IMG/VR virus record: IMGVR_UViG_3300042546_000489
Coordinates: 1-52,453 of that record
Source: a virus
Strand: one strand, 5' to 3'
Length of the DNA stretch: 52,453 nt
Below are positions 4,542 to 52,453 of the stretch, piece by piece (position 1 is the first letter of the stretch; every line of letters begins with the position of its first letter). The notes under the pieces are model-generated. The model was not told the DNA's origin and did not search any database. It worked only from the letters and a program-made list of their open reading frames with translations. A program made the translations under genes and the position numbers.

Positions 4542-5912
4542 GTGGACAAGATCAAGCAGCTTCTCGACGAGCTCGCCCAGGTCGTCGCCGAGATGGAAGC
4601 GATGTCCGAGGCTCCCGCCGAGGGCGACGCCCCCGCGATGGACGCGGAGGAGGAGTCGTCGCTTCGCTCGCTGTCCGAGCGTGCCGACAAGCTCCGCAGC
4701 CAGATCGAGCTGCTGCGTGCCATCGAGGCGAAGAACCTCGAACTGCGTGCCGTGCTGGAGCGTGGTGCTCCCGCCAAGGCGATCGAGAAGGCTGCTGCCG
4801 AGGAGGCTCCCGTGGAGAAGCGAACCGTCCCCGCGATCCCCGTTAGCCACGGACCGCTCAAGGCGTTCCGCAGCGCCGAGTCAGCGTACCGCGCTGGCAT
4901 GCACCTGAGGGGCTACGTGTTCGGCGACGCCGAGGCTCGTCGGTGGTGCGTCGATCACGGCGTCGAGAGCCGCGCCCAGGCGGGCGGCGTCAACTCGCTC
5001 GGTGGTGTGCTGACCAGCCCCGAGCTCAGCAACGAGATCATCCGGCTCGTCGAGGAGTACGGCGTGTTCCCGCAGTACGCTCGCCGGGTGCCGATGTCGA
5101 GCGACACCCTCAACATCGCCCGTCGCACCGGTGGGCTCGCCGCCCGTCCGGTCGGTGAGAACGCCGAGGTTCTCGCGAGCGACGTGACGTTCGACAACGT
5201 CGAGCTCGTCGCGAAGATCTGGGGCGTGGCGAATCGCGTCCCGAACTCGCTGCTCGAAGACTCGGTCATCGACCTCGCCGACCTCATGGCCGTCGAGACG
5301 GCTCAAGCGTTCGCCGAGGCCGTCGATAATTCGGCGTTCGGTCCTGCCGACGGCGAGAGCACCTACCACGGCGTGGTCAGCATCACGAAGAAGATCGTCA
5401 AGGCTGCTCACTCGGCGTCGGTCGTCACCACGACCAACGGCACCGAGGACACCTACGGCGAACTGACCATGAAAAACTTCACCGACATGGTGGCGAAGCT
5501 GCCCACCTATGCTCGGCGGAACGCCCGGTTCTACATCTCCCCGTCCGGCTGGGGCGCTGCGATGCTCAGGCTCGCGATGCTCCCCGGTGGTGCGAGCGGC
5601 CCTGGCGGCAACTCGTCCAGCGACGTGGCCGCCGGGTTCGGTGAGCGGTTCCTCGGATACCCTGTCGTGCTCGTCTCGGCGATGCACTCCAGCCTCGACG
5701 ACAGCAGCGGCGAGGTGGCCTGCCTCTTCGGCGACCTCTCGCAGGCCGCCGTCTACGGCGAGCGTCGGGCGATCCAGATCCGCACGGCGTCCGAGCGGTA
5801 CATCGAGTACGACCAGACCCTCACGTTCGCCACGACCCGCAACGCGATCGTCGTGCATGACGTGGGCTCAACGAGCAAGGCTGGCCCGGTCGTGGCTCTC
5901 AAGTTCGGCTGA
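4542..5912 (+). CDS. HK97-fold major capsid protein
   Basis: Main shell protein, 456 aa, matching the HK97 major capsid family (PF05065). Residues 1-90 are a charged coiled coil (MDKIKQLLDELAQVVAEMEA), typical of the scaffolding delta domain; the upstream protease probably cuts near residues 90-110 (KRTVPAIPVSHGPLKAFRSA). The body contains characteristic segments such as GGVLTSPELSNEIIRLVEEY, VELVAKIWGVANRVPNSLLE and the C-terminal YDQTLTFATTRNAIVVHDVG. The GTG start is chosen because AAGGAGA sits 7 bases upstream (4528-4534). The order protease, capsid, connectors is the standard one. Confidence 0.93.
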   Translation: MDKIKQLLDELAQVVAEMEAMSEAPAEGDAPAMDAEEESSLRSLSERADKLRSQIELLRAIEAKNLELRAVLERGAPAKAIEKAAAEEAPVEKRTVPAIPVSHGPLKAFRSAESAYRAGMHLRGYVFGDAEARRWCVDHGVESRAQAGGVNSLGGVLTSPELSNEIIRLVEEYGVFPQYARRVPMSSDTLNIARRTGGLAARPVGENAEVLASDVTFDNVELVAKIWGVANRVPNSLLEDSVIDLADLMAVETAQAFAEAVDNSAFGPADGESTYHGVVSITKKIVKAAHSASVVTTTNGTEDTYGELTMKNFTDMVAKLPTYARRNARFYISPSGWGAAMLRLAMLPGGASGPGGNSSSDVAAGFGERFLGYPVVLVSAMHSSLDDSSGEVACLFGDLSQAAVYGERRAIQIRTASERYIEYDQTLTFATTRNAIVVHDVGSTSKAGPVVALKFG

Positions 5913-18318: not shown

Positions 18319-19176
18319 TCAGTTGATTCCCGGTAGCACCTCGCAAGGCGGCGGATCGCGATCAGTCAGGCGGCGATCGAGATACCAGCGGTGTGTGATT
18401 CGCGGGCTGGAGTGATCTAGCAACTTGACGGCGTCGCCCCCGAGGGCGGCGTAGTGCGATGCCGCAGAGCGTCGCAACTGATGAAAGCCGCACTTGCGGC
18501 CCGTGGGCAATCCGGCACGACGCACGACATCGCGATACTTCGTCCAGAGGTACTCTCGCGAGCCAGGCCACTCGAACACGCGGTTTTTGCCGCACGCTCT
18601 GGCGACGAGGTCATACGTCACCGGAGTGAGCCGGTACGCACGGTCTCGCTTGCCGCCCTTCCGATACTCGGCTCGCACGCTGAGAAACGGCGAGGCCAAG
18701 TCCTCTGGCCGACATGCCAGCACGGCTCCGATACGCTCGGCTGTTTCCCACAGCACGTTCACGAGCGCGGCGTACCAGATGCCCGCTGGCACCGTGCCGA
18801 CGCGTCCAGGTGTCGCCACGGCGGCACGCACGAGGGACCGCAACTGATCGACGCTCCACGCCTCTGGAATGCGGTCTGGCAGCGGAGCGGGCGGCACGCA
18901 CGGCCGGTCCCGAACGAATCCGCGATCAGCGGCGAACCGCCAGAGCGCGATGAGCTGCGTGCGTTCCTTCTCGGCCGTGTATGGACTGCGCGTGCTGCCA
19001 CGGTGCTCAAGAAACCGGCTGATCGTCAGATCGGTCAGGTCGTCAATCGTCGGCTCGTGCCGCAGCCACTTCCAGAACGAGCGAATCGTGCATCCGTACA
19101 GGCGGCTCGTGTTTGCTGATCGTCCGCGCAGCCGCAGCGGACGGTAGTAGTCATCGAACAGATTCTGCAGCGTCAT
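18319..19176 (-). CDS. int: Tyrosine recombinase (integrase)
   Basis: A 285-aa site-specific recombinase and the only confident minus-strand gene. The N-terminal SAM-like domain includes MTLQNLFDDYYRPLRLRGRS. The catalytic residues are recognisable: Arg in WETAERIGAVLAC, Lys in YRKGGKRDRAYRL, HxxR in FHQLRRSAASH, His in LLDHSSPRIT and the nucleophile Tyr in HRWYLDRR. The frame extends 64 codons further upstream, but ATG at 19176 has a near-perfect GAGGAGG nine bases before it and is chosen. It points to lysogeny by integration; the attachment site probably lies in or beside the gap after its start. Confidence 0.9.
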   Translation of the reverse strand: MTLQNLFDDYYRPLRLRGRSANTSRLYGCTIRSFWKWLRHEPTIDDLTDLTISRFLEHRGSTRSPYTAEKERTQLIALWRFAADRGFVRDRPCVPPAPLPDRIPEAWSVDQLRSLVRAAVATPGRVGTVPAGIWYAALVNVLWETAERIGAVLACRPEDLASPFLSVRAEYRKGGKRDRAYRLTPVTYDLVARACGKNRVFEWPGSREYLWTKYRDVVRRAGLPTGRKCGFHQLRRSAASHYAALGGDAVKLLDHSSPRITHRWYLDRRLTDRDPPPCEVLPGIN

Positions 19177-19356
19177 CGCGTGCCTCCTCGTAGGGGATAG
19201 GTCACGCATCCAAGCGTCGCAAGTCGGCTCCTGCCTGTAGGGGTTGAAACGATTAGTCGGCCGTCCGCGAATCCTGTCCCCGCCATTGCACGCCCGCCAG
19301 TCCGAGGGGATTGGCGGGCGTGCCTTGCTTCGATCGAAACTACAGGATCGCGAACA
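19177..19356. promoter_or_regulatory. Divergent control region between integrase and HTH gene
   Basis: A 180-base gap between oppositely oriented genes. It should hold the promoters for both and is the natural place for attP arms or operators. It contains two GTAGGGG words (19190-19250) and the long inverted repeat listed separately. I cannot define an attachment core or firm -35/-10 boxes here. Confidence 0.5.
19288..19323. repeat. 16-bp inverted repeat with 4-base loop
   Basis: Left arm 19288-19303 pairs with right arm 19308-19323 around GAGG, with one G-T pair. The arms include GCACGCCCGCCA and TGGCGGGCGTGC. No T-run follows on either strand, so an operator, an integrase/excisionase arm site or a leader hairpin is more likely than a terminator. 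Confidence 0.8.
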
Positions 19357-19575
19357 ATGGTCAAGCAACCGGACTACATTTCGGTTCCGAAGGCTGCAGA
19401 AATCCTCGGATGCTCGGACGTTTGGGTCATTCGGATGATCGAACGCGGCGAGCTCGAAGGCTTCCGGCTCTCTGGCCGCGCGTGGGCGGTGAGCCGCGCG
19501 TCAGTGGCGAAAAACCACGAGGAGTACCTCAAGCGAGACCCCACCCTCTCGGGAAGAAAGCGGTCACGCGCGTGA
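19357..19575 (+). CDS. HTH excisionase-family protein
   Basis: A 72-aa protein fitting the helix-turn-helix 17/MerR-like excisionase group (PF12728). SVPKAAEILGCSDVWVIRMI forms the HTH, and ERGELEGFRLSGRAWAVSRA the wing. Such proteins act as recombination directionality factors or small regulators. Divergent placement opposite the integrase across a shared control region supports an excisionase or early regulator role. The ribosome site is weak (AGGATCG about 8 bases upstream). Without a test it cannot be told from a general repressor. Confidence 0.7.
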   Translation: MVKQPDYISVPKAAEILGCSDVWVIRMIERGELEGFRLSGRAWAVSRASVAKNHEEYLKRDPTLSGRKRSRA

Positions 19576-21175: not shown

Positions 21176-21436
21176 ATGACGAAGCGAATCGAGCAATGGC
21201 TAGAGCAGCACGGGTTCAAAAACGGAGATTGGCACTGGGACTTCAACAATCTCCGAGTCGCTGCAATCGGCCACGAGTTCCTCATCATGATGTTCTGGGG
21301 GCGAGCAGGCGAGACGCCGCTGGCATGGTCGGCTGCGTTCCCCTGCCCCGACGGCAAGTTGTCCGCACCGGAAGACGTGGTGCTGGAGACGATCAAGCAG
21401 GCGTTCAAGCACGCTGACGTATCGGAGGTGCGGTAA
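21176..21436 (+). CDS. Hypothetical early protein
   Basis: An 86-aa aromatic-rich protein (TKRIEQWLEQHGFKNGDWHW near the start). It uses the leader AACGGAGGAC and overlaps the next ATG by one base (TAATG). No motif is recognised. Confidence 0.5.
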   Translation: MTKRIEQWLEQHGFKNGDWHWDFNNLRVAAIGHEFLIMMFWGRAGETPLAWSAAFPCPDGKLSAPEDVVLETIKQAFKHADVSEVR

Positions 21437-21903
21437 TGCAAACCTTCCTGCCCTACCCCAACATCTGGGCCTCGGCCCGGTGCCTCGACAATCGGCGACT
21501 CGGCAAGCAGCGGGTCGAGTGCAAGCAGATTTTGCTCACGCTCGGAGTCGACGTTGGCGAGCATCGCGGCAACCCGGCATCGCGGTGGCGGAACCATCCC
21601 GCTGTCCGTATGTGGCGAGGCCACGAGCTTGCCCTGGCCGAGTACGCCGAGATCATGTGTGCGGCGTGGCGGAATCGCGGATTCAAAGACACGCTGCGGG
21701 AGCAGTTCCGTGCTGTGTGCGACCGACTGCTGTCAAGCAGCCGGTGGCACTCCTCGCCCAACTGGCTCGGCTACGACCGGCTGCACGCCTCGCACCGGAG
21801 CAACCTGCTCCGCAAGGACGCCCGACACTACGGTCAGTTCGAATGGCAGGAGCCAGCCGACCTTCCGTACTGGTGGCCTGTGGACAAGGAGGTGGCGGCA
21901 TGA
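21436..21903 (+). CDS. Pyrimidine-dimer glycosylase-like protein (MSMEG_6728-type)
   Basis: A 155-aa protein opening MQTFLPYPNIWASARCLDNR and RLGKQRVECKQILLTL, then RWRNHPAVRMWRGHELALAE. This pattern is that of the bacterial MSMEG_6728 group, related to T4 endonuclease V-type pyrimidine dimer DNA glycosylases (PF03013). T4 DenV uses an N-terminal Thr as nucleophile; here the second residue is Gln and the third Thr, so catalytic equivalence is uncertain. It could repair UV damage or bind DNA. It is coupled to the upstream gene by a TAATG overlap. Confidence 0.65.
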   Translation: MQTFLPYPNIWASARCLDNRRLGKQRVECKQILLTLGVDVGEHRGNPASRWRNHPAVRMWRGHELALAEYAEIMCAAWRNRGFKDTLREQFRAVCDRLLSSSRWHSSPNWLGYDRLHASHRSNLLRKDARHYGQFEWQEPADLPYWWPVDKEVAA

Positions 21904-33231: not shown

Positions 33232-33477
33232 ATGACACATGGCGTAGCAGGGCCGTCCGTTGCATCGCTTGGTTCTCCGACTATCGCGTACCGCGTGGTG
33301 GCGGCGAGCAGCGCAAAGGCACTGGAGACGGAGGTAGCACTGTTGATCGCACAGGGATACTTGCCGATAGGTGGCGTCTCAGTGGCAGTGCTGCACAGGG
33401 AGTGGGAAAACCAACTCAAGGGCTACACCGAGAGCGACGCCGACTGGGAGTATTCGCAGGCCATGCTGCGGCAGTGA
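33232..33477 (+). CDS. DUF1737 protein
   Basis: An 81-aa protein. AYRVVAASSAKALETEVALL and IAQGYLPIGGVSVA match the DUF1737 pattern (PF08410), a small fold of unknown role found in phages and bacteria. GGAGGAC lies 6 bases before the ATG. The final 25 residues (GYTESDADWEYSQAMLRQ) are phage-specific. Followed by a 103-base gap in which I see no firm signal. Confidence 0.65.
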   Translation: MTHGVAGPSVASLGSPTIAYRVVAASSAKALETEVALLIAQGYLPIGGVSVAVLHREWENQLKGYTESDADWEYSQAMLRQ

Positions 33478-33580
33478 CGGTCGGAGAACTTGTGTTTCTA
33501 CTGTCCGTATGTTACGCCGCTTCCGTGTATCACGCCTCCGCTAACTGCAAGGCCACTAGCCTCGCGTGCCATGATCGGGC

Positions 33581-34372
33581 ATGCGACTCGTGGCGACTCT
33601 CATCGCCGTGTCGGCCCTCGCGGCATCCGCCGCCACGATTGACGAGTCGAAGGGCGACGGCCGCTACCTCGACTACGGTGCGACGTTCTCTGGCTACGTC
33701 GTGCGGGTCGTCGGCAACAACGCCGAAGGCGTGCCGCTCGCTGGTTCTGGCACGCTCATCTCGCCGCACTGGGTGCTCACGGCGGCACACGTGCCGCACG
33801 AGATGACGGCGGTGACCGTCGTTATCGGCGGCGAGCGTCTCGCGTGCGACCGCGTCGTGCGGCATCCCGAGTGGGAGGGCATCCACGGGTGGCACGACAT
33901 CGCCCTGGTGCGGCTCGGGCGGCATCGGCACGCCGACGTGTATCCACGGCTCGCTGACGGCACCGAGCGGCTCGGGAGCGTCGCCGCCGCCGCTGGGTAC
34001 GGGATGACAGGCACGCTCACACGCGGGCTCACGGGCGGCGACCAGCGGCTGCGGGCGGGGACGTGCGTCCTCGGGTCGATCGAGCACGGCGTGTATGTCT
34101 GCCCGATTCGCAGGACGCCCGACGCTGGGCCGCTCCCGGCGTGCATCGCACCTGGCGACTCGGGTGGCCCGCTCTGGGCGACGGCGATCGACGGCTCGAC
34201 GAGGATTGTGGGCGTGAACTCGTACGTGGCCCGCGTCGGCGGGAAGACGAAGTACGTCCTCGGCGAGGAGTCGGGTCACACGCGCGTGGTGCTCTACCTC
34301 GATTGGATTCGCAGCGTGACCGGCGAACTTGACTCGCCATGCACGATGCCTGAATGCCAACCGCCACGCTGA
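33581..34372 (+). CDS. Secreted trypsin-like serine protease
   Basis: A 263-aa protein. Residues 1-18 form a Sec signal peptide (MRLVATLIAVSALAASA). The chymotrypsin-fold triad is complete: His70 in SPHWVLTAAHV, Asp106 in WHDIALVRL and Ser194 in CIAPGDSGGPLW. Several cysteines could form disulfides in the envelope. S1 proteases are rare in phages and usually of cellular origin. No ribosome site is clear; a TGCC/GGCA dyad overlaps the start region. A natural role in remodelling a proteinaceous envelope, or as a lysogenic-conversion protein, is inferred. Confidence 0.88.
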   Translation: MRLVATLIAVSALAASAATIDESKGDGRYLDYGATFSGYVVRVVGNNAEGVPLAGSGTLISPHWVLTAAHVPHEMTAVTVVIGGERLACDRVVRHPEWEGIHGWHDIALVRLGRHRHADVYPRLADGTERLGSVAAAAGYGMTGTLTRGLTGGDQRLRAGTCVLGSIEHGVYVCPIRRTPDAGPLPACIAPGDSGGPLWATAIDGSTRIVGVNSYVARVGGKTKYVLGEESGHTRVVLYLDWIRSVTGELDSPCTMPECQPPR

Positions 34373-34575
34373 GATTCCGCCTGCCCGAGGACGAGGGCGA
34401 TTTCCGCGACTGCGTCGAAGGCTCGCGGGCGAAGTCGATCGTCATCCTGCTCGATGACCACCTCGCCACCGAGATCAAGGGCGGCGAGCTCGGCCACGAT
34501 GTCGAGGTGGCGTACCAGGAGCTCCGCGAGTGGCTGCGGAGTCAGTGTGCGGAGCACGGGCTCGATCTGCTGTGA
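34354..34575 (+). CDS. Small acidic hypothetical protein
   Basis: A 73-aa protein (PTATLRFRLPEDEGDFRDCV, later LGHDVEVAYQELREWLRSQC). It overlaps the protease end by 19 bases and the RusA start by four. Proteins of this size and character often precede RusA genes in phages, but no function is known. Confidence 0.5.
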   Translation: MPTATLRFRLPEDEGDFRDCVEGSRAKSIVILLDDHLATEIKGGELGHDVEVAYQELREWLRSQCAEHGLDLL

Positions 34576-34970
34576 CCATCACGCTGTCCATCCCCGGCGA
34601 TCCGGTGCCGCAACCGCGCCCGCGAGTGTCAACGCAGGGCGGGTTCGCTCGCGCGTACGTACCGAAGAGCCATCCAGTTCACGCCTACCGACAGGCGATC
34701 GCATTAGCGGCAAGCGTCGCCGGGCTCCGCGAGCAGGAGAAACCAGTCAGCGTCGTCATCGACGCGGTGTTCGCACGACCGAAATCTCACATGAACAAGG
34801 CAGGCGTGAAGCCGACCGCACCGGCACTGCCGCGACCCGACGTAGACAACCTGGGCAAGGCGGTCCTCGACGCATTGCAGGACGTGATGGGAGACGACAC
34901 GCACGTCGCACGGCTCGTCGTCGAGAAATCGTGGGGCACCGAAGGACGCACGACGGTGCGGATCACGTGA
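34572..34970 (+). CDS. rusA: RusA-type Holliday junction resolvase
   Basis: A 132-aa resolvase (PF05866). The N-terminus (TITLSIPGDPVPQPRPRVST) and the signature PRPDVDNLGKAVLDALQDVM with DDTHVARL, bearing catalytic Asp residues, are clear. It cuts four-way junctions so that branched DNA can be packaged. The GTG start makes a GTGA overlap with the previous stop, and its own end overlaps the next glycosyltransferase gene. Confidence 0.9.
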   Translation: MTITLSIPGDPVPQPRPRVSTQGGFARAYVPKSHPVHAYRQAIALAASVAGLREQEKPVSVVIDAVFARPKSHMNKAGVKPTAPALPRPDVDNLGKAVLDALQDVMGDDTHVARLVVEKSWGTEGRTTVRIT

Positions 34971-35563
34971 GCGTCGCGATCTTCACGAGCGCGGGTGTCG
35001 GCACGCCGTGGGCAGAGCTCACGGTGGCGAACCGTCTCGCGTACTGCGTGCGGCACGACTACACGATGGTGTGGCGGTGCGAGGCGTACTCGCAGGCGTT
35101 GTCGAACTTCTGGCGGATCGGGCAACTGCTCGAACACCATGACCTCGTGTGGACGCTGGACGCCGACTGCGTGATCACGAACCTGACGACCCGGATCGAG
35201 GACGTGCCCGATCTCGGGCCGCACATGACGATCTGCGAGGAGGGTATCGGCGCTCACGCCCTGGTGAACGGCGGGTCGATCGTGTGGCGTGCAACTCAAG
35301 GCACGCTGTCGCTGCTCGCCGACATCGTCGCTGCAGAGGACGAGTGGCGCTCGATGGAGTGGAACGTCCAGCAGTGGCTGATGAAGCACCGCGAGCGGCT
35401 AGCGGATCGCATGACGATCGCGCCGAAACGGGCTTTCAACTCTGTGCATCTCGGGCAGACGAACCACTGGCAGCACGGCGACCTGGTTTATCACCCGTGC
35501 GGTAATCCGCCCGCCATCCGATGCGACTTGATCCGCGAGTACCTGGGGCGGGTGGTCACATGA
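34967..35563 (+). CDS. GT-A-like glycosyltransferase (GT34-type appearance)
   Basis: A 198-aa protein. FWRIGQLLEHHDLVWTLDAD contains the DxD metal site (DAD) with the upstream helix typical of GMA12/MNN10-type galactosyl/mannosyl transferases. Acceptor-side EWNVQQWLMKHRERL and a closing His-rich segment follow. It opens a run of five overlapping genes (34967-38358), four glycosyltransferases and one methyltransferase. The GTG start overlaps the RusA stop. Donor and acceptor are unknown; GDP-fucose made by the phage is one candidate donor. Confidence 0.75.
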   Translation: MSVAIFTSAGVGTPWAELTVANRLAYCVRHDYTMVWRCEAYSQALSNFWRIGQLLEHHDLVWTLDADCVITNLTTRIEDVPDLGPHMTICEEGIGAHALVNGGSIVWRATQGTLSLLADIVAAEDEWRSMEWNVQQWLMKHRERLADRMTIAPKRAFNSVHLGQTNHWQHGDLVYHPCGNPPAIRCDLIREYLGRVVT

Positions 35564-36129
35564 GCTACCAGTTCACGCACGACTGGTTCTCGATGCGCAC
35601 GAACGCATGGCGAGAGCACGTGCTGCCTCGCCTGCCGCACCCGTGCCGATGGCTGGAGGTCGGCTCGCACGAGGGTCGCTCGGCGTGCTGGATGCTCGAT
35701 GAGGCGCTGAAGCCCGGCGACGTGATCACGTGCGTGGATACGTGGGGCGGGCCGTTCGACGGGTACTCGTCGGAGAATCCCGAGGCGCGGTTCGAAGCGA
35801 ACCTCGCGGGACGTGCCGAGAAGTTCAAGGGACGCTCGCACGTATTCTTCGCCCGTGCTCTCGCCGAGCATCGGATGTTCGACGGCGTCTACATCGACGG
35901 CGGGCACGAGGGCCGCACGGTGCTCGAAGACACCGTCCTCGCGTGGCGTCTGCTCAAAGTCGGCGCGGTCATCGTGTGGGACGACTACGAATGGCGCGAC
36001 CCGCACCCGAACCGGCAGCACCTGCCGACGCCGAAGCCCGCGATCGATGCGTTCCTCTCGCTCTACGGTCAATACCTCGACGTGCTGCATCGTGAGTGGC
36101 AAGTCATCGCCGTGAAGCGGGGCGAGTAA
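35560..36129 (+). CDS. Class I SAM-dependent methyltransferase
   Basis: A 189-aa protein with motif I in RWLEVGSHEGRSACWMLDEA, the acidic ribose contact in VITCVDTWGG, and FDGVYIDGGHEGRTVLEDTV followed by VIVWDDYEW, in line with the Methyltransf_24 type that modifies sugars or small molecules. No DNA-methylase motifs (PC or DPPY) are present. Embedded between glycosyltransferases, it probably O-methylates a glycan. It overlaps neighbours by four and one bases. Confidence 0.78.
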   Translation: MSYQFTHDWFSMRTNAWREHVLPRLPHPCRWLEVGSHEGRSACWMLDEALKPGDVITCVDTWGGPFDGYSSENPEARFEANLAGRAEKFKGRSHVFFARALAEHRMFDGVYIDGGHEGRTVLEDTVLAWRLLKVGAVIVWDDYEWRDPHPNRQHLPTPKPAIDAFLSLYGQYLDVLHREWQVIAVKRGE

Positions 36130-36734
36130 TGGACATCTACGCGATCACGACGAGCGTCAACTACGCGGACTACCTGGCGATTTGCCTCAACTGCCTCGCC
36201 GGTCAGGTCACGGGCGTCTGCGTTGTCACGGAGACGAACGACGCGAGCATCGCTGTCGCCGAGAAAGCCGAGGCGACGGCGCTGATCTATGACGGGTGGC
36301 ACGCCGACGATGCAGCGTTCAATAAGGCGGGTGCGATCCGGTTCGCCCAGGAGCACCTTCACGCCGCGTACCCGGAGGCGTGGTATCTGCTGATCGACGC
36401 CGACGTGATGGTGCCGACGAACGCACGCCAGATCATCGAGCAGGACGCGACGAATCCCGAGACGCTCTACGGCGCGAGGCGGGTCGATTTCCACACGCCC
36501 GAGCGGCTCATGGACGGCAAGCCGAACAAGGCATACGCCTCGATGTTCGCCGGATTCTTTCAGCTGTACCGGCGGCACGTGCTGTACCCGGAGTGGTCAC
36601 GCACGGCCGAGCTCTGCGACCTGTCGTTCGCGAAGCAGTTCGCGTCGTGCGTCGTGCTGCCGATGACGGTCGGTCACTGCGGCGTCGAGGCGGTCAACTG
36701 GGAGGGGCGGCGTTCGCCGCTCTGGAAATGCTGA
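36129..36734 (+). CDS. GT-A-like glycosyltransferase
   Basis: A 201-aa protein. DIYAITTSVNYADYLAICL at the N-terminus and EAWYLLIDADVMVPTNARQI (DAD motif) fit a GT-A glycosyltransferase. Later FAGFFQLYRRHVLYPEWSR and VGHCGVEAVNWEGR are acceptor-side features. TAATG couples it to the methyltransferase and its end overlaps the next gene by seven bases. Confidence 0.72.
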   Translation: MDIYAITTSVNYADYLAICLNCLAGQVTGVCVVTETNDASIAVAEKAEATALIYDGWHADDAAFNKAGAIRFAQEHLHAAYPEAWYLLIDADVMVPTNARQIIEQDATNPETLYGARRVDFHTPERLMDGKPNKAYASMFAGFFQLYRRHVLYPEWSRTAELCDLSFAKQFASCVVLPMTVGHCGVEAVNWEGRRSPLWKC

Positions 36735-37501
36735 CCATCTTCACGCTCGTGCTCAACGGGCAGCCGTACATCGAGCAGCACCTCGCGACGTTTCGCCAGC
36801 TCACGATCCCGTGGCAGTGGCGGATCGTCGAGGGCGTCGCGGCACCGACGCACTGCACCGCGTGGTGTCAGACGATGCCGGACAAGTGGCACCGGGACTT
36901 CGTCAGCGTGGACGGTACGCACGAGTACGTGCGGGCGGTGAACAACACGCCGAACGTGACCTGCTCGTGGCGTCACTCACCGTGGGACGGCAAGATCGCG
37001 ATGATCGCACGCGCCCTCGAAGGCGTCGAAGGCGGCGTCGTCATGCAGGTGGACAGCGACGAGCTCTGGCAGGCGTGGCAGTTGGAGCGGATCTACTGGC
37101 TGATGATGCAGCAGCCGGTGGCGACCGCCGCCCGGTTCGCGTGCCGCTACTGGGTCGGGCCGTCGAAGCTCCTGACGAGCACGACGGGCTGGGCACGCGG
37201 CGACCTCGAATGGCTGCGAGCGTGGCGTTGGGGACCGGGCATGCGGTTCCTCCGACACGAGCCGCCGATCGTCACGGGGTTTGACCGGTGCGTCACGATC
37301 GAATCAACGCAGGCGGCCGGGCTCGTGTTCGATCACTTCGCGTACACGACCGAGCAGCAGATTGCCATGAAGCAGGACTACTACGGGTACACGGGGCTGA
37401 CCGATGCGTGGCATCGGCTCCAGGCGACGAGCGGGCCTGTGAATCTTCAAGAGTTCTTTCCGTTCGCCATCGGGGCGACAGCGGATGACGTGGGGATATG
37501 A
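36728..37501 (+). CDS. GT2-like glycosyltransferase
   Basis: A 257-aa protein beginning MLTIFTLVLNGQPYIEQHLA, a GT2-like start, with GGVVMQVDSDELWQAWQLER carrying the DSD metal site. The C-terminal half has many aromatic residues (DHFAYTTEQQIAMKQDYYGY). Part of the glycosyltransferase run; substrates unknown. Confidence 0.72.
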   Translation: MLTIFTLVLNGQPYIEQHLATFRQLTIPWQWRIVEGVAAPTHCTAWCQTMPDKWHRDFVSVDGTHEYVRAVNNTPNVTCSWRHSPWDGKIAMIARALEGVEGGVVMQVDSDELWQAWQLERIYWLMMQQPVATAARFACRYWVGPSKLLTSTTGWARGDLEWLRAWRWGPGMRFLRHEPPIVTGFDRCVTIESTQAAGLVFDHFAYTTEQQIAMKQDYYGYTGLTDAWHRLQATSGPVNLQEFFPFAIGATADDVGI

Positions 37502-38358
37502 CGACCTACACCATCACCGCCTCCGACATCGAGGCTCACCGCCCCGACGTGCTGCTCCCGCCCGACGAGGAGTTCGTGGAGCAGTACGCCGAAGCCGTGC
37601 GTGTCGGGCGAGAGGTCGCAGCCGATCGCACGGCCTCGCTGGTTGCCATCTGCCGCAATGCCATGCCCTGGCTGCCGCAGACGCTCGGGCTCGTAGAGGA
37701 GACGGGCGCGATGTTCCGCTCGTGGTCGGCGTACATCTTCGAGAACGACTCGTCCGACGAGACGAAGGACGCGCTCGCGGCGTGGGCCGATGGCACGCAG
37801 AGGCAAGTGTCGCTGAACATCAACCACCGGCCGCACCTCTCGCATACGATCGACACCGAGCGGACGGTCGCACTCGCGGAGTACCGCACGCAGTGCCAGC
37901 GGTGGGTGCGGCACGGCGAGCCGTGCGACTATGTCGTCGTGTTCGACTCCGATGCCTGGGGCGGCTGGAGCGTTGACGGCGTCGCGACGAGCGTGGGACA
38001 TATCGAGGCGGCTCGCGGGGCGTCGTGCATGGCGAGCTATTCGTGGGCGGAGCACAACGGGTACGCGATCCACTACGACGCATTCGCGGCACGGTGGAAT
38101 CACTGGCGGCGTCGCGATCAAACGTGGTTCCATCACTGGCACCCGCCTGTCGGCTCGCTGCCGCTGCGATTCAACAGCGCCTTCGGGCAACTGGCGCTCT
38201 ACCGGAGGGACGCCTACCTCGCCATGCGGTACAGCGGCGAGGACTGCGAGCACGTGTGTGCTCATCGCACGATGCCGGGGCGGTTGTATCTCAACCCGTC
38301 GAGCCGGTGCGTCTCCTACTGGACACCACGCGATGCCGGGCAACACGGCGACAATTGA
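37498..38358 (+). CDS. Glycosyltransferase-like protein
   Basis: A 286-aa protein. SLVAICRNAMPWLPQTLGLV and SAYIFENDSSDETKDALAAW resemble the donor-binding half of GT2-type enzymes, and CDYVVVFDSDAWGGWSVDG holds a DSD site. The C-terminus (GRLYLNPSSRCVSYWTPRD) completes the fold. It closes the run of overlapping sugar-transfer genes. Specific linkage unknown. Confidence 0.7.
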   Translation: MTTYTITASDIEAHRPDVLLPPDEEFVEQYAEAVRVGREVAADRTASLVAICRNAMPWLPQTLGLVEETGAMFRSWSAYIFENDSSDETKDALAAWADGTQRQVSLNINHRPHLSHTIDTERTVALAEYRTQCQRWVRHGEPCDYVVVFDSDAWGGWSVDGVATSVGHIEAARGASCMASYSWAEHNGYAIHYDAFAARWNHWRRRDQTWFHHWHPPVGSLPLRFNSAFGQLALYRRDAYLAMRYSGEDCEHVCAHRTMPGRLYLNPSSRCVSYWTPRDAGQHGDN

Positions 38359-45308: not shown

Positions 45309-45612
45309 CATCCACACGCTGTACGCTGCCGAGCCGTTGTCTTACGCAGCCACGTATGACCGCCTGTGGGTCCGCGAGATCGTCGTCTCATCCCAGACAG
45401 GCGGCGAAGCCGAAGCCCGCGTGACGTTGGTCCGATTCCGCACCACCGAGACAGGCGTGGAGGAGGCACCGGCCGAGCCGGTGCGGCTTCATGTCCGCGA
45501 CCTGCTCGCTGGAGCGGAGGCCGACGCGGACCTCGCGGCGGCGGTGGGGGCGTTGATGAACTACGTGGCGAAGGTTGGCGTGGCAGAGGGCGTCGTCGCG
45601 GCGGGCGAGTGA
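45301..45612 (+). CDS. Small protein after the receptor fibre
   Basis: A 103-aa acidic protein (ADIHTLYAAEPLSYAATYDR; LHVRDLLAGAEADADLAAAV). It overlaps the fibre gene by eight bases. Position suggests a fibre assembly or accessory protein; no motif is recognised. Confidence 0.5.
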   Translation: MADIHTLYAAEPLSYAATYDRLWVREIVVSSQTGGEAEARVTLVRFRTTETGVEEAPAEPVRLHVRDLLAGAEADADLAAAVGALMNYVAKVGVAEGVVAAGE

Positions 45613-45613
45613 T

Positions 45614-46549
45614 ATGGTCGTCCTGTCGTCGATCCTGCGTCGCGAAGAACCGCAGCGCGAGCGACGCGAGCGGGTGCCGCTACCCGGCGAGCTCGCCGTC
45701 GTCTGCGTGTTCTGGAATCCTGCCGGGTGGCGATCGCTGCGGCGGAACTACCTCCGGTTCCTCCACGAGATGCGGTGGTGGGGCGTGCCGACGTTCAACG
45801 TCGAGCTCGCCTACGAAGGGCAGGCGTTCACGCGCGACGACGCGTGGCTCACGGTCCGAGGCGGCGACCGAAACGTCCTGTGGCAGAAAGAGCGCCTCAT
45901 CAACCTCGCAGTCGAACGCCTGCCCGACCGCTTCGACAAGGTGGCATGGATAGACGCCGATATGGTCTTCCTCGACCACCAGTGGCCCGAGCGGCTGTGC
46001 CGCACGCTCGAAGAGTGGCCGGTGGTGCAGATGTGGAACGAGTGGCACTGTGCCGGGCCAGACGGGCAGATCGAGAGCAAGAAGTTCTGCGTCGGACATC
46101 GCTGCGAAAGGTATCTCAGCGAACAGAACTGCTGTCCTGGCGGTGCGTGGGCGGCACGACGCGACATCTGGCCGCTCTACGATCGGCACATCGTCGGCAG
46201 CGGCGATTCGATGATGGTCGAGGGATGGACGAACCACCAAGTGAAACGCTGCCTGCGGATCATGAACGAGCCGATGGCGAAGCACTTCCGCGAGTGGAGC
46301 GAGGTGGCGTACGCGAAGGTGAAAGGCGAGATCGCGTGCCTGCCCGGTGACGCGATGCACCTGCACCACGGGAGCCTCGCCGACCGGCAGTATCACTCCC
46401 GGTGGTATCCCGTCGTGAACGGCGGATATGACCCGGCGACGCACGTCGAGGTGGACGAGAACGGTCTGCTTCGATGGACGGACTCGGCACCCGAGACGCT
46501 CGTCGAGTGGGTGCGAGGCTACTTCGCGAGCCGAAACGAGGACGGCTGA
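45614..46549 (+). CDS. GT-A-like glycosyltransferase
   Basis: A 311-aa protein. GELAVVCVFWNPAGWRSLRR starts the donor domain; RFDKVAWIDADMVFLDHQWP carries the DAD metal site; CCPGGAWAARRDIWPLYDRH and EVAYAKVKGEIACLPGDAMH fit the acceptor half, ending in a histidine-rich HLHHGS. It is directly upstream of the GDP-fucose genes, which makes fucosyl transfer an attractive, unproven, role. Confidence 0.75.
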   Translation: MVVLSSILRREEPQRERRERVPLPGELAVVCVFWNPAGWRSLRRNYLRFLHEMRWWGVPTFNVELAYEGQAFTRDDAWLTVRGGDRNVLWQKERLINLAVERLPDRFDKVAWIDADMVFLDHQWPERLCRTLEEWPVVQMWNEWHCAGPDGQIESKKFCVGHRCERYLSEQNCCPGGAWAARRDIWPLYDRHIVGSGDSMMVEGWTNHQVKRCLRIMNEPMAKHFREWSEVAYAKVKGEIACLPGDAMHLHHGSLADRQYHSRWYPVVNGGYDPATHVEVDENGLLRWTDSAPETLVEWVRGYFASRNEDG

Positions 46550-46575
46550 GTTGACACGTGCCGCACCATGCGGGC

Positions 46576-47502
46576 ATGGACATATCAACCAAGCGAATCC
46601 TCGTCACGGGCGGTGCCGGGTTTCTCGGCAAGGCAGTCTGCCGCGTGCTGCACAGTCGCGGATGCCGTCACGTGATCGTGCCTCGCCGGGTCGCGTGCGA
46701 CCTGACCAGCGAGGAGGACACGATCGACCTGTTTGACGACCACCGGCCCGAAGTCGTTCTGCACCTCGCGGCCGAAGTCGGCGGCATCGGGGCGAACATG
46801 GCGACGCCGGGAAGGTTTACCTACGCGAACCTCGCGATGGGGCTGCACGTGATCGAGCAGTGCCGACGGTTCGAGGTCGAGAAGGTCGTCGTCGTCGGCA
46901 CGGTGTGCAGCTACCCGCTCGATCCGCCCGTGCCGTTCGTCGAATCGGACTTGTGGAACGGCTACCCCGAACCAACGAACGCCGGATACGGCGTGGCGAA
47001 GCGTGCGGTCTACGAACTACTCAAGCAGTACAACAAGCAATATTCGCTCCCCGGTGCCGTTGTGATTCCGACAAACCTGTACGGCCCGCACGACAACTTC
47101 GACCCGGTGTCTTCGCATGTGATCCCGGCGATGATCCGGCGATTCTGCCGCACCGATCCGGTGACGCTCTGGGGGACGGGATGTGCGTCGCGAGAGTTCC
47201 TCCACGTGGACGACGCTGCCGAAGGCATCGTGCGAGCAGCGGAGAAGGTGACGACGCCCGATCCGATCAATCTCGGTGGTGGCGGCGAGGTGCAGATGAG
47301 GAAGCTCGCCGAGATGATCGCGGGCGAGTGCGGCTACATGGGCACGATCCGCTGGGACTCCTCGAAGCCAGACGGACAGCCGAGGCGTGCGGTCGATGCG
47401 ACCCGAGCCCGCGAGATTCTCGGGTGGACGCCGAGAGTCAGCCTACAGAACGGCATCGCCGAGACGGTCTCGTGGTGGAGGGATCAATGCGTGTCGCTCT
47501 GA
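46576..47502 (+). CDS. fcl: GDP-L-fucose synthase
   Basis: A 308-aa short-chain dehydrogenase that turns GDP-4-keto-6-deoxy-mannose into GDP-L-fucose using NADPH. The dinucleotide motif [26 protein letters not shown] (with the catalytic Cys), NAGYGVAK (Tyr-Lys pair) and [20 protein letters not shown] (with the His) follow the E. coli enzyme closely. One of the Ser positions next to the Cys reads Thr/Val here. ATG 46576 lies six bases after a TTGACAC-N6-CACCATG element. Paired with gmd. Confidence 0.9.
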
Positions 47503-48455
47503 TCACCGGCATCACCGGGCAGGACGGCTCCTATCTCGCTGAGCTCCTGCTCGCGAAGGGCTATATCGTCCACGGCATCGTGCGGCGGTCGAGCACGTTC
47601 GGCACGCAACGAATCGAGCACATCTTCCACCGGCTCAACCTGCACTACGGCGACGTGACCGACGGCGGTGCGATGGCAAGGCTCGTCGCTGAGATCGAGC
47701 CAGACGAGCTCTACAACCTCGCGGCGCAGAGCCACGTGCGGGTGTCGTTCGACCAGCCCGCGTACACGGCGGAAGCGGTCGGGCTCGGAGCGCTCAACGT
47801 CCTCGAAGCAGCCCGCGTCGTGCCGGGATGTCGTGTCTATCAAGCGTCCTCCTCCGAGATGTACGGGCAGGTCGCCGAGACACCCCAGCGGGAGACGACG
47901 CCGTTTCGTCCACGATCACCGTACGGCGTGGCGAAGGTCTACGCTCACTGGATCACGGTGAACTACCGCGAGAGCTACGGGATGCACGCATCGTGCGGCA
48001 TCCTGTTCAATCACGAGAGCCCGAGGCGCGGCGAGACGTTCGTGACCCGCAAGATCACGCGGGCGGCGGCACGCATCGCCAGCGGCATCCACGAGACGCT
48101 GTACCTGGGCAACCTCGACGCCCGGCGGGATTGGGGCCACGCAGCCGACTACGTCGAGGCCATGTGGCTCATGCTGCAACAGGACGAGCCCGACGACTAC
48201 GTCATCGCCACGGGCGAGACGCACAGCGTGCGGGAGTTCTGCGAGCGGGCGTTTGCCCACGTGGGGCTCGACTACCGCGACCACGTCGAGATCGACCCAC
48301 GCTACTACCGACCGGCTGAGGTGGACCTGCTCCAGGGCGACGCGAGCAAGGCACGCAGGCAGTTGGGCTGGGTGCCGAGCGTGACGTTCGAGGGGCTCGT
48401 GGCGGGCATGATGGACGCGGAACTGCAAGCGTTACGGGGACGCGTGGTAGCGTGA
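47487..48455 (+). CDS. gmd: GDP-mannose 4,6-dehydratase
   Basis: A 322-aa enzyme that makes GDP-4-keto-6-deoxy-mannose, the substrate of the upstream gene product. [20 protein letters not shown] binds [40 protein letters not shown] (Tyr/Lys) and [19 protein letters not shown] are signatures of the family. GGAGGGATC precedes the ATG, which overlaps fcl by 16 bases. Only GDP-mannose from the host is needed to complete the pathway. Confidence 0.92.
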
Positions 48456-48459
48456 GGCT

Positions 48460-48801
48460 ATGCCGCAGCGGATACCGACGTGCCGCCCTCCTCGGCTACG
48501 AACTCCACGCAAGCCCGAGGCTCGACCCAACGCCTACCAGCGTGGCTACTGCGACGAGCGGCACCGGGCGTGGCGGCTGGCCGTGCTATTGCGTGACGCG
48601 TGGACGTGTCGCCGGTGCGGGCGGGTATGCGCCAACAAGCGGGAAGCCCACGCGGACCACGTGAGCCCGGTCGTGCATGGGACTGACCACTGCGAGGATG
48701 GACGCAGTCGGTATGACGTGGATGGCGGGCAGTGCCTCTGCGTCGCGTGCCATGCCAGCAAGACAAAAACCGATCAGCATCGACTTTCTGGAGGACACTG
48801 A
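48460..48801 (+). CDS. HNH endonuclease
   Basis: A 113-aa HNH nuclease: zinc pair CRRC and CVAC, with EAHADHVSPVVHGTDH and CLCVACHASKTKTDQ forming the beta-beta-alpha metal site. In HK97-type phages an HNH protein near the terminase helps cut DNA at cos sites or start packaging, which fits here. A basic Pro-rich N-terminus (RIPTCRPPRLRTPRKPEARP) is additional. It starts four bases after gmd. Confidence 0.85.
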   Translation: MPQRIPTCRPPRLRTPRKPEARPNAYQRGYCDERHRAWRLAVLLRDAWTCRRCGRVCANKREAHADHVSPVVHGTDHCEDGRSRYDVDGGQCLCVACHASKTKTDQHRLSGGH

Positions 48802-48991: not shown

Positions 48992-49627
48992 ATGAACATT
49001 CGAAACCGCGTCAAATCGCTCCGTATGGTCCCTGCGAGCGACCTCCGGCCCAATCCGAAGAACTGGCGAACGCACCCGAAAGCCCAGCAGGACGCCCTCC
49101 GGGGCGTGCTGGCCGAGGTCGGGCTGGCCGACGCCTGCCTCGCCCGCGAACTGCCCGACGGCTCCCTCATGCTGATCGACGGCCACCTTCGAGCCGAGAC
49201 GCTTGGCGACGGCGACGTGCCAGTTCTGATCCTCGACGTGACCGAGGCCGAGGCCGACAAGATTCTCGCGACGCTCGACCCGCTCGCTGCGATGGCGGAC
49301 TCCGACGCGGCCAAGTTGGAGGAGTTGCTGCACACGGTCAACACGAGCAGCCAAGCGTTGCAGGAGTTGATCGCGGCGACAGCGTCGCAGGCCGGGCTGT
49401 ACGAAGACCTGAACGCAGAAACGTCAGAAGAAGGCGACGATCCGAGCGACGAAGACGAGGCCGACGATCCGCCGCCGAGTGGCGTTCGCATGGTGCAGTT
49501 GTTCCTCGACGAGTCGAATATCGGCGAGTTCCAAGACGCCTGCACCAAACTTGCCGAGGAGTACGCGACCGAGAACATCACCGACACCGTGATGGAGGCG
49601 GTTCGCCGTGCAAGTGCATCACTGTAA
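48992..49627 (+). CDS. ParB-like nuclease-domain protein
   Basis: A 211-aa protein. VPASDLRPNPKNWRTHPKAQ and ELPDGSLMLIDGHLRAETLG are the conserved ends of a ParB/Srx-type domain. Helical middle and an acidic linker (EEGDDPSDEDEADDPPP) follow, then a C-terminal SGVRMVQLFLDESNIGEFQD domain. In phages, ParB-like proteins recur beside terminases and beside TET/JBP dioxygenases, suggesting sequence-specific DNA handling for modification or packaging. No strong ribosome site is seen; the gene follows a terminator and needs its own promoter. Confidence 0.8.
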   Translation: MNIRNRVKSLRMVPASDLRPNPKNWRTHPKAQQDALRGVLAEVGLADACLARELPDGSLMLIDGHLRAETLGDGDVPVLILDVTEAEADKILATLDPLAAMADSDAAKLEELLHTVNTSSQALQELIAATASQAGLYEDLNAETSEEGDDPSDEDEADDPPPSGVRMVQLFLDESNIGEFQDACTKLAEEYATENITDTVMEAVRRASASL

Positions 49628-50525
49628 GGAGAAGTTCCAAGCCGACTACCTCGCAGGAACCAAGCTCGACGAGTCGCACTACGACCACCTGCTTGGCGGC
49701 GACGAACCGTGTGACGTGTTCAAGCCTGACGGAACGCCTCTCGTGAAGTACCGCCCGCGTTGGTTCAGCGAGGGGCTGTGCAAATCGGTTATGCCTGCGT
49801 GCCGCAAGGCGGCGACGAAAACGAACAACCGGGGTATGGCCGCTGGTGACATCAAGGAAGTTGAACTCGGAACGCAAAGACCGATTGCGGCGCTCACCAA
49901 AACGCACTTCCGCACTATCAAGGAAGACGGCACGATCAGCAACACGACGCGAGGCGGCGAGGTAGAGAGCGGCATCATCGGCTACTTCGACCGGAGCGCC
50001 AGGTTCCCGTTCTGCCGCCAGACCTCATTCCTCATCTCGCAGGCCGCGTCGTGGAAGCGTTTCCTCCCGTACATCGAACGAGCCGACGAAGGTTTCCGCG
50101 AGCTCATGCCCGACCGATGGGCGGTGCAGCGCGGGTACGCCAGCCGCACCGCGTCGGATTGGGTGATCCCGCAAAGCACGTTCACGACGGTCACGGTCAA
50201 CAAGAACTTCCAGACCGCGACCCATAAAGACGCTGGCGACCTCGCATCTGGCTTCGGCGTGATGTCGTGCCTGCGGAACGACAAGTACGACGGAGCGTAT
50301 CTGGTGTTCCCGGCGTACCGCGTTGCGGTGAACTTCGGACACGGCTGCCTCTGCCTCGCAGATGTCCATGAGTGGCACAGCAACACGCCGTTCACAAGAA
50401 TGCGGCTCGGCTACGAACGCATCACGCTCGTTTTCTACTACCGCGAGAACATGATTCACTGCAAGGAAGCGAAGGCGGAAGTCGAGTGGGCGAAGAACAG
50501 AAAAAGAGGGGAGCCACTGGCGTAA
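49608..50525 (+). CDS. TET/JBP-like 2-oxoglutarate/Fe(II) dioxygenase
   Basis: A 305-aa protein. The C-terminal half has the iron- and cofactor-binding pattern of TET/JBP base dioxygenases: NKNFQTATHKDAGDLASGFG with His206 and Asp208 (HxD), DGAYLVFPAYRVAVNFGHGC, ADVHEWHSNTPF with the distal His (254 or 257), and Arg271 in YERITLVFYYREN for 2-oxoglutarate. Such enzymes hydroxylate methyl groups of 5-methylcytosine or thymine in DNA; phage versions act in hypermodification. The GTG start has GGAGG 9 bases upstream; it overlaps the ParB-like gene by 20 bases and the next gene by one. Confidence 0.85.
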   Translation: MQVHHCKEKFQADYLAGTKLDESHYDHLLGGDEPCDVFKPDGTPLVKYRPRWFSEGLCKSVMPACRKAATKTNNRGMAAGDIKEVELGTQRPIAALTKTHFRTIKEDGTISNTTRGGEVESGIIGYFDRSARFPFCRQTSFLISQAASWKRFLPYIERADEGFRELMPDRWAVQRGYASRTASDWVIPQSTFTTVTVNKNFQTATHKDAGDLASGFGVMSCLRNDKYDGAYLVFPAYRVAVNFGHGCLCLADVHEWHSNTPFTRMRLGYERITLVFYYRENMIHCKEAKAEVEWAKNRKRGEPLA

Positions 50526-51469
50526 TGGCTGTATGCCTTTTCTATCTCGCGGAACCGAAGTACGGCGGATGGCCAACCTACACGTCGCATCTCTACAGAG
50601 GACTCGCGGAAATAGGCAAACGACCTGTCCTGTTCAAGATAGGAAACACAACTGACGGCAGGATGCGACCGTACGGCAGGGGGATTGAATACACGAACGT
50701 CACGCTAAGCGATGCAGTTTCAATGGCGCGTGGTAACCCCTGCTTCATCACCGCAGTCGGGAAGGGCTACTACGACGCCGCTTGCAGTTTGATGCTGTCA
50801 GGTGCATCCGTTTGCGTGCACGACCCAACGGAGCTGAAAGAACCTTTCGCATCGGCACTCCCAGCCGCAAAGGTGATTGTGATCCGTGAGTCGATGCTTT
50901 CGCACCTACCTCGCGCGAAGTTCATCCTTCATCCTTACGCGCCTCGCGGGCAGCAAGGAACCAAAGAAAAACTAGCGTGCGCGATATCAAGAATCGACCA
51001 TGACAAAAACACAGCCATCATCGCATCTGCGAACGAACGGCTAAAAGAGCCCGTTCAACTTTACGGCGCGATCAACCGCATCTACTCATACTTCACGCTA
51101 GACGCGAAGCACCCCGGCTGGGAGAAGAACTACGTCTTAGCACCGAGCGCGAGCAGCCTCTGGGCGTGCCAGAAAATCGCTTGCGGATACAAGAAAGTGG
51201 TCGATCTGTCCGTCATCAAGAAAGACGGCAGAGGAACGCAGTATACGTTTCTTGAGGCCGTGGACGCAGGCTGCTCGCTGGTTTTGCACAAAGCGTGGGA
51301 ACCGACTGGGTTGCTTTCGCAGTTGAGTCGCACCGTGCAAGATGCAGACGGCTTGGTCGAAGAGCTTTCGAGGCCGTGCAAGTTCGACAAGAAAGCCGCC
51401 AGCCGATTGTTGGCACACCACTGCCACAAAAAAATAGCGGCACAAACCTGCGAAGCGATAGGAGCCTGA
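50525..51469 (+). CDS. GT-B-like glycosyltransferase linked to the dioxygenase
   Basis: A 314-aa protein. AVCLFYLAEPKYGGWPTYTS is a GT4/GT-B-like opening with a Gly-rich loop, and GRGTQYTFLEAVDAGCSLVL near the end is the donor-site helix region of that fold. TAATG couples it to the dioxygenase; the likely natural role is adding a sugar to the hydroxylated base. Base use is clearly different: 50941-51060 is about 51% G+C versus 68% at 47701-47760, suggesting recent transfer. The fold is inferred from these two regions. Confidence 0.65.
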   Translation: MAVCLFYLAEPKYGGWPTYTSHLYRGLAEIGKRPVLFKIGNTTDGRMRPYGRGIEYTNVTLSDAVSMARGNPCFITAVGKGYYDAACSLMLSGASVCVHDPTELKEPFASALPAAKVIVIRESMLSHLPRAKFILHPYAPRGQQGTKEKLACAISRIDHDKNTAIIASANERLKEPVQLYGAINRIYSYFTLDAKHPGWEKNYVLAPSASSLWACQKIACGYKKVVDLSVIKKDGRGTQYTFLEAVDAGCSLVLHKAWEPTGLLSQLSRTVQDADGLVEELSRPCKFDKKAASRLLAHHCHKKIAAQTCEAIGA

Positions 51470-51470
51470 C

Positions 51471-51998
51471 ATGGGAAAGCGCGGCCCCGCCCCTGAACCG
51501 TCGATCCTGAAATACATTCGCGGCAACCCGTCGAAGACGGCGCTGCCGACGAACGAGCCGACGCCAGACCTGCTCGACAAGCTCGACCCGCCAGCCTCGA
51601 TCAATGACGATCCGGTCGCCGTGCAAAAGTGGCACGAGACCGTTCCGACGCTGCGGCGGATGCGCGTGTTCACGGAGGCCGACGTGGATGCGTGGGCGAT
51701 CTATTGCCACACGTGGTCTAAGTGGATTGAGGCGAAAGAGAAGTGCAAGCAGTTCGGCCGCGACAACGTGCAGATGGAGCCAGACCCGAATCGAACCGAC
51801 GGGAGGATGCGGATCAAGTGGACGCAGCCGTACTCGTGGGCGGTTGACGAGCGATCGCTCCGCAACGATCTGCGTCGCCTTCAGCAGGACTTCGGCATGA
51901 CGCCGAGCAGCCGTTCGCAGGTGAGCACGCATGCCCAAGAAGAAGCAGACCCGGTTGCCGATTACGCTGCGAAGAGACGCCGAACGCCAGGGGCTTGA
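51471..51998 (+). CDS. terS: Terminase small subunit, P27 family
   Basis: A 175-aa protein of the phage P27 small terminase group (Terminase_4, PF05119). GKRGPAPEPSILKYIRGNPS at the N-terminus and VAVQKWHETVPTLRRMRVFT with WAIYCHTWSKWIEAKEKCKQ are typical. It recognises phage DNA and regulates the large subunit. AGGAG is 6 bases before the ATG, one base after the glycosyltransferase stop. It overlaps terL by 68 bases. Confidence 0.88.
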   Translation: MGKRGPAPEPSILKYIRGNPSKTALPTNEPTPDLLDKLDPPASINDDPVAVQKWHETVPTLRRMRVFTEADVDAWAIYCHTWSKWIEAKEKCKQFGRDNVQMEPDPNRTDGRMRIKWTQPYSWAVDERSLRNDLRRLQQDFGMTPSSRSQVSTHAQEEADPVADYAAKRRRTPGA

Positions 51999-52453
51999 CT
52001 ACTACTTCGATCCAGAGGCTGCGCAACACGTCGTCGGCTTTTTCGAGAAGTGGCTGCGACACTCGAAGGGCAAGCACGCAGGCGAGCCGTTCGCGTTGCT
52101 CGATTGGCAGACCGCGATGCTCGGCGAGTTGTTCGGCTGGAAGCGGCTCGACGACGGATCTCGCCGCTACCGGATGGCGTACATCTCGACCGCAAAGAAG
52201 CAGGGCAAGTCCACGTTGCTTGCTGGCATCGGCCTGTACCTTCTTGCCTTCGACGGTGAGATCGGGGCGGAAATCTTCGGGTGCGGGGCCGACCGCGAGC
52301 AGGCGTCGATCGTGTTTCGCGAGGCTGCGAGCATGGTGCGGGCGTCGCCCAAGCTCTCCCGCGTGCTGGAAGTCATCGACTCCCGCCGCACGATCGCTTA
52401 CCGCAACGCGTCGTCGTTCTACCGAGTTCTGTCTGCCGACGCGTTCCGGGCCG
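51931..52453 (+). CDS. terL: Terminase large subunit, N-terminal part (runs off the window)
   Basis: This frame starts PKKKQTRLPITLRRDAERQG after the ATG and continues FEKWLRHSKGKHAGEPFALL, DWQTAMLGELFGWKRLDDGS to the Walker A. It corresponds to residues 1 to about 174 and supplies the 81 residues missing from the copy at the window start. From 52136 it repeats the left end with three amino-acid differences. The pair is best read as one gene split by the way the circle was opened. Confidence 0.92.
   Translation, partial: MPKKKQTRLPITLRRDAERQGLDYYFDPEAAQHVVGFFEKWLRHSKGKHAGEPFALLDWQTAMLGELFGWKRLDDGSRRYRMAYISTAKKQGKSTLLAGIGLYLLAFDGEIGAEIFGCGADREQASIVFREAASMVRASPKLSRVLEVIDSRRTIAYRNASSFYRVLSADAFRA
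52136..52453. repeat. Right copy of the terminal direct repeat
   Basis: Partner of 1-318, about 94% identical and indel-free. Removing one copy gives a circular map of 52,135 bp with terL intact. Confidence 0.9.

Follow-up and report, generated by a model that had tools for sequence, protein, structure and literature searches.

Cassettes that pair a TET/JBP dioxygenase with a glycosyltransferase, or that join ParB-like, TET and kinase genes, are already known, and operons of TET/JBP genes with glycosyltransferases and ParB-like proteins were reportedly predicted computationally by Iyer in 2013. As outlined in PMC12730594, which cites Burke et al. 2021, some phages hypermodify cytosine by means of a C5-methyltransferase, a TET enzyme and a glycosyltransferase. 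The Rhodococcus phage Tonitrus carries ParB, TET-like, aGPT-Pplase2 and 5-hydroxymethyluracil (5hmU) kinase genes, which its authors read as a pathway of thymidine hypermodification (PMC11955845). Here we describe a related cassette in a window of 52,453 nucleotides (the whole stretch of DNA that was analysed) from the IMG/VR virus record IMGVR_UViG_3300042546_000489, in which genes for a ParB-like protein, a TET/JBP dioxygenase and a predicted GT4-type glycosyltransferase run directly into the terminase genes (Table 1). Judging from sequence comparison and structure prediction, this cassette is very probably a DNA-base hypermodification module, whatever the base, and thymine is the base that we moderately favour. 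New features are an unclassified, GT4-type, TET-linked glycosyltransferase family, the swapping of a gene slot beside the terminase, and a TET clade that is nearly free of methyltransferases and carries an aspartate at position 211 (D211).

Each of the described systems shares part of this arrangement. Like the methyltransferase-dependent phage system, the window combines a TET/JBP enzyme with a dedicated glycosyltransferase, such that hydroxymethylation within the polymer would be followed by addition of a sugar; however, the C5-methyltransferase is absent from this phage and nearly all of its relatives, and the window TET belongs to a different clade, marked by D211, whereas asparagine stands at that position in the clade holding methyltransferase-bearing records. 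Tonitrus has the same succession of ParB-like, TET-like and base-decorating enzymes, and the Gordonia phage LittleMunchkin carries a comparable set before its terminase, but the window slot holds a single glycosyltransferase, with no kinase in the slot and no ADDT found in the genome. The kinase and amino acid:DNA transferase families of thymidine hypermodification in phages M6, ViI and SP10 do fill the slot in some close relatives of the window phage, although those pathways start from a dUMP hydroxymethylase that makes 5-hydroxymethyldeoxyuridine before replication, and none was found in the window. Base J, made by a kinetoplastid JBP and a glucosyltransferase, offers an analogy for the proposed hydroxylation of thymine in DNA followed by a sugar; the window differs in being a phage operon with ParB and a glycosyltransferase of the GT4 kind, and thymine activity here is proposed. 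Phage T4 makes 5-hydroxymethylcytosine (5hmC) as a nucleotide, unlike the in-DNA route proposed for the window phage.

A constant ParB-TET core with an interchangeable slot

Our strongest evidence for base hypermodification is the combination of a constant ParB-TET core with an interchangeable decorating enzyme. The window's TET subclade is well supported in a quick tree (Shimodaira-Hasegawa-like approximate likelihood ratio test support, midpoint root, several long branches), and within this subclade what lies between TET and the terminase, one gene or several, is exchanged from locus to locus. The enzymes found there, TAGT, ADDT, Ploopntkinase3, FkbM and radical SAM, belong to families that are known for base decoration or named after it. 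With families assigned by Pfam on representatives, and relatives given as numbered loci, the slot holds the window-type glycosyltransferase in the window, L002-L006, L009 and L022; another GT-A-like protein, with weak similarity to the TET-associated glycosyltransferase TAGT (PF20691), in L007, L008, L010 and L026-L028; TAGT itself, above the cut-off, in L014 (E 9.4e-18) and L016 (E 3.1e-6); a radical SAM/SPASM protein, an unassigned protein and a TAGT-like protein in L018, L031, L034-L036, L039 and L043; an FkbM methyltransferase in L012 and L040; and ADDT (PF18724) with a P-loop kinase (Ploopntkinase3), in some cases together with a glutamine amidotransferase, in L011, L030, L032, L037, L038, L041 and L042. 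Where a window-type terS is recognisable, it stands directly after the slot. The larger relatives DLP6 and Cr30 have their TET gene by replication genes rather than by the terminase. Location next to terS-terL fits late expression of the cassette, and gene order is what suggests that modification might take place just before packaging, against which the position of TET in these larger relatives speaks. The unassigned slot protein is conserved and about 300 amino acids long, and its gene is flanked by the radical SAM gene on one side and the TAGT-like gene on the other; the copy tested (L018, 2461-3369) matched nothing in Pfam, PHROG or NCBIfam.

The sequence-only reading had proposed a TET/JBP dioxygenase with an HxD motif, a distal histidine and R271, and profile searches confirm that assignment. 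The protein matches Pfam Tet_JBP (PF12851) with E 3.9e-20 and 72.1 bits, well above the curated cut-off of 34.9, and an alignment of 63 sequences shows no variation at the Fe ligands H206, D208 and H257 or at the 2-oxoglutarate-binding R271. Searched against the PDB, the profile of these 63 sequences reached human TET2 (E 2.9e-8) and the Naegleria Tet-like dioxygenase, whereas PDB sequence searches with single proteins gave no match. An AlphaFold2 model of the dioxygenase, built from a shallow 12-row alignment, is of low confidence (predicted local distance difference test, pLDDT, 35.8). Relatives of the dioxygenase were found in 80 viral-contig loci, and all three genes are under purifying selection against the relatives L004 and L009, with ratios of nonsynonymous to synonymous substitution rates of 0.05-0.06 for TET, 0.08-0.09 for the glycosyltransferase and 0.17-0.25 for ParB. 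Because of these low ratios and the many related loci, we consider the cassette genes to be real.

The glycosyltransferase call of the sequence-only reading is likewise upheld, in this case by predicted structure. While searches of Pfam, PHROG and NCBIfam gave no match for the protein, its AlphaFold2 model (60-row alignment; pLDDT 96.5, predicted template modelling score 0.93) has a GT-B fold of two Rossmann-like domains, and VIA gave Z 19.8-24.1 over about 280-303 residues for 50 entries, all GT4 or related enzymes, pointing to a retaining GT-B enzyme of the GT4 kind. Among the best matches, GT4 enzymes at Z 23-24, is T4 DNA alpha-glucosyltransferase (AGT), with Z 23.1 over 303 residues in VIA and found also by Foldseek, and the structural matches include entries with hydroxymethyluracil DNA. 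Within the family, H99-D100 and R156-x4-K161 are invariant and E244 is nearly so, and we take these motifs to resemble the donor-site motifs of GT4 enzymes. T4 AGT has the GT-B fold and all three motifs (HD, R-x4-K and E) in common with the window protein, but the two are only about 14% identical and other GT4 enzymes match equally well. Six of 60 family members matched Pfam Glyco_trans_1_2 (best E 3.3e-7), the window protein not among them, and a tBLASTn search of the glycosyltransferase against named phages gave no match.

The first gene of the cassette encodes a protein that matches PHROG ParB-like families with E of about 1e-11 to 1e-9 (9.6e-12 and 1.2e-10 among them) and has no Pfam match. 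Its cluster is present in 73 of 88 loci, and the protein probably recruits or positions the modifying enzymes on DNA.

The modified base and rival readings

In the mechanism that we propose, the TET/JBP enzyme would hydroxylate a pyrimidine within phage DNA at its C5-methyl group, and the new hydroxymethyl group would then receive a sugar from the GT4-type transferase. With thymine as the base, the route would lead from thymine to 5hmU to glycosyl-5hmU, as in base J. The profile match, the predicted glycosyltransferase structure and the gene swapping together support the earlier proposal of base oxidation by TET/JBP with decoration by a glycosyltransferase. DNA as the substrate, thymine, the sugar, the role of ParB and the proposed protection from host nucleases are what we infer from this comparison.

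Genome content tips the balance towards thymine. No C5-cytosine methyltransferase (PF00145) was found in the nearly complete window genome or in 18 related records, nor in 49 of 50 more records, the remaining one (L043) matching weakly and over part of the profile (25 bits, 114 positions). This match (record G031, 33415-33747, minus strand), the only one in the window's TET clade (clade A), covers a third of the profile and is perhaps a broken gene. PF00145 is also without a match in the cultivated clade-A phages HTVC112P (a pelagiphage), P12024L (Nonlabens), DLP6, Cr30 (Caulobacter) and S-CBWM1 and in LittleMunchkin, which belongs to a second TET clade (clade B). A thymidylate-synthase-type hydroxymethylase (PF00303) was found neither in the window nor in 14 relatives and 27 further records, many of them with kinase/ADDT genes and some of them large; of the six cultivated phages named above, one, Cr30, does encode a PF00303 protein. 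In a phage that encodes no C5-methyltransferase and no hydroxymethylase, thymine is the most likely base. Moreover, the lack of a hydroxymethylase in phages with kinase/ADDT slots leaves no visible origin for the hydroxymethyl group other than TET, and 5hmU is the substrate of the DNA kinase that has been characterised for the thymidine hypermodification pathway (5hmdU DNA kinase; PMC7653180). Taken together, a hydroxymethyl group supplied by TET and a kinase that acts on 5hmU favour thymine.

The two TET clades are also split at position 211, where 40 of 41 clade-A sequences have aspartate and all 22 clade-B sequences have asparagine. D211 aligns with N1387 of TET2 and D234 of NgTET1, in the column of the N of HRDLHN (TET2) and the D of HKDNLD (Naegleria TET), whose residues contact the base; the split between clades makes base specificity directly testable. 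Clade B shares the glycosyltransferase family, and 7 of its 29 records match PF00145, compared with 1 of 71 in clade A (Fisher p 0.0006), or 5 of 22 against 1 of 39 for records of at least 15 kb (p 0.02); many of these records are fragments and they are not independent, and this contrast in methyltransferase content is suggestive only.

Several results weigh against thymine, or against DNA as the substrate of the glycosyltransferase. Naegleria TET, a 5-methylcytosine (5mC) oxidase, also has aspartate in the column of position 211, so D211 alone is no proof of thymine, and LittleMunchkin, a clade-B phage with N211, kinase and ADDT but no methyltransferase, indicates that the residue is not simply tied to the pathway. 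Among records of at least 30 kb, the PF00145 contrast shrinks to 1 of 18 against 2 of 12 (p 0.55). The GT-B fold is common among GT4 enzymes with substrates other than DNA, and sharing it does not in itself imply a DNA substrate. We also discarded a sequence link between the glycosyltransferase profile and T4 AGT, which was too weak (hhalign probability 1.4), and used the structural match alone. The sole phenotypic hint of nuclease protection comes from Stenotrophomonas phage DLP6, a distant clade-A relative that is listed as restriction-resistant (PMC8228603). The DLP6 restriction panel, for which the text gives no enzyme-by-enzyme results, included enzymes with GC-only sites (PMC5349666), whose cutting a change confined to thymine would not obviously prevent; the resistance supports modified DNA but not a change of thymine alone.

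The best-surviving alternative, which we consider less likely, retains the same module and changes its substrate: host methyltransferases could supply 5mC, which TET would convert to 5hmC and the glycosyltransferase to glycosyl-5hmC. Precedent exists in the phage TETs that PMC12730594 describes with a C5-methyltransferase and glycosyltransferases making glycosylated cytosine, and clade B, which has the same glycosyltransferase family, includes the records that match PF00145. Nevertheless, the window genome and nearly all clade-A records have no such methyltransferase, TETs almost identical to that of the window occur together with kinase/ADDT genes, of which the known relatives act on 5hmU, and reliance on host 5mC would restrict the modification to few sites.

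It is quite improbable that the glycosyltransferase modifies surface molecules of the virion or the host instead of DNA and follows TET incidentally. While the genome does contain other glycan genes (Table 1), GT4 folds are general, and 22 of the 79 loci of this glycosyltransferase family have no TET within the sequence available, the coupled start of the two genes at TAATG, the presence of TET in 57 of the 79 loci and the fact that close relatives have TAGT, ADDT or kinase genes in the same slot all point to DNA. Least credible, to the point of being very remote, is a role of TET/JBP in demethylation or epigenetic control, such as lysogeny switching, rather than bulk hypermodification: TET enzymes start 5mC removal in animals and the genome has an integrase-like open reading frame, but this TET has a decorating enzyme as its constant partner, and such an enzyme would serve no purpose in demethylation.

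Returning to thymine, we hypothesize, with confidence evenly balanced, that the cassette belongs to a bacterial-virus counterpart of base J, in which the D211-bearing TET clade that lacks C5-methyltransferases hydroxylates thymine in DNA and feeds an interchangeable slot of sugars, kinase-dependent amino acids and other groups, with the window's GT4-type enzyme representing a new DNA glycosyltransferase family. If TET acts on thymine, this would constitute a prokaryotic route to base-J-like DNA, as well as a second entry to thymidine hypermodification without a special nucleotide pool. The swappable slot supplies candidates for DNA-decorating enzymes, among them a glycosyltransferase family without Pfam or PHROG assignment; these candidates would be useful for modified-base tools and would help to explain how phages escape restriction.

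Genome context and neighbouring genes

The three reading frames of the cassette lie where the sequence-only reading had placed them, and the details of their junctions hold as well. The ParB-like and dioxygenase genes overlap by 20 nucleotides, TAATG at 50523-50527 contains the dioxygenase stop and the glycosyltransferase start, and terS begins one base after the glycosyltransferase stop; terL in turn starts inside terS.

Table 1. Positions of cassette genes, conserved residues and other features in the window
Feature	Position	Strand	Basis
ParB-like protein, 211 amino acids, with DGHLRAE (ParB-box type motif)	48992-49627	+	PHROG
TET/JBP 2-oxoglutarate/Fe(II) dioxygenase, 305 amino acids, GTG start	49608-50525	+	PF12851
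H206	50223-50225		
D208	50229-50231		
D211	50238-50240		
H257	50376-50378		
R271	50418-50420		
Predicted GT4-type GT-B glycosyltransferase, 314 amino acids	50525-51469	+	AlphaFold2, Foldseek, VIA
H99-D100	50819-50824		
R156-x4-K161	50990-51007		
E244	51254-51256		
Terminase small subunit (terS), next gene in the run	51471-51998	+	PF05119 E 2.3e-15; phrog_83
Terminase large subunit (terL), 5' part	51931-52453	+	PF03354 E 9.9e-17
HNH endonuclease, upstream of the cassette	48460-48801	+	phrog_589 E 1e-15
Tyrosine-recombinase-like (integrase-like) open reading frame	18319-19368	-	by eye
Pyrimidine-dimer DNA glycosylase-like protein	21436-21903		PF03013 E 6e-20
Trypsin-like serine protease	33581-34372		PF00089 E 2.5e-13
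Run of glycosyltransferase-like open reading frames	34454-38358		mostly no family match
Methyltransf_24 protein within this run	35521-36129		
GT-A-like open reading frame, NAD-dependent epimerase (GDP-fucose-synthase-like), GDP-mannose 4,6-dehydratase	45575-48455		

The contig ends (1-318 and 52136-52453) overlap by 318 bp, with 300 positions identical (94%), indicating that the genome, of about 52.1 kb, is essentially complete; because of this overlap, terL continues from position 1 of the window. The slight difference between the two ends may reflect different strains. Scans of bacterial genomes, one with the TET alignment and one with TerL, found no relative. No promoter-like site turned up at the cassette, and the number of terminator-like sites did not exceed chance. 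The HNH endonuclease upstream (cluster c9) often precedes the cassette in near relatives.

Several further genes concern glycans. The genes at 45575-48455 form a phage-borne nucleotide-sugar pathway, shared among near relatives only with L003 and L009. We rejected the dehydratase and fucose-synthase-like genes at 46558-48455 as an argument for a sugar donor, since other phages with the same glycosyltransferase do not have them next to the cassette, an arrangement confined to the window phage, L003 and L009. The run that begins at 34454 is possibly involved in virion or surface glycosylation. In L129-L135 (about 2900-5040), the same glycosyltransferase family accompanies a radical SAM/SPASM protein, with no TET in the available stretch, perhaps representing a different modification route.

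Elsewhere in the window, the tyrosine-recombinase-like frame suggests a temperate phage, and the genome also encodes a trypsin-like serine protease and a pyrimidine-dimer DNA glycosylase-like protein.

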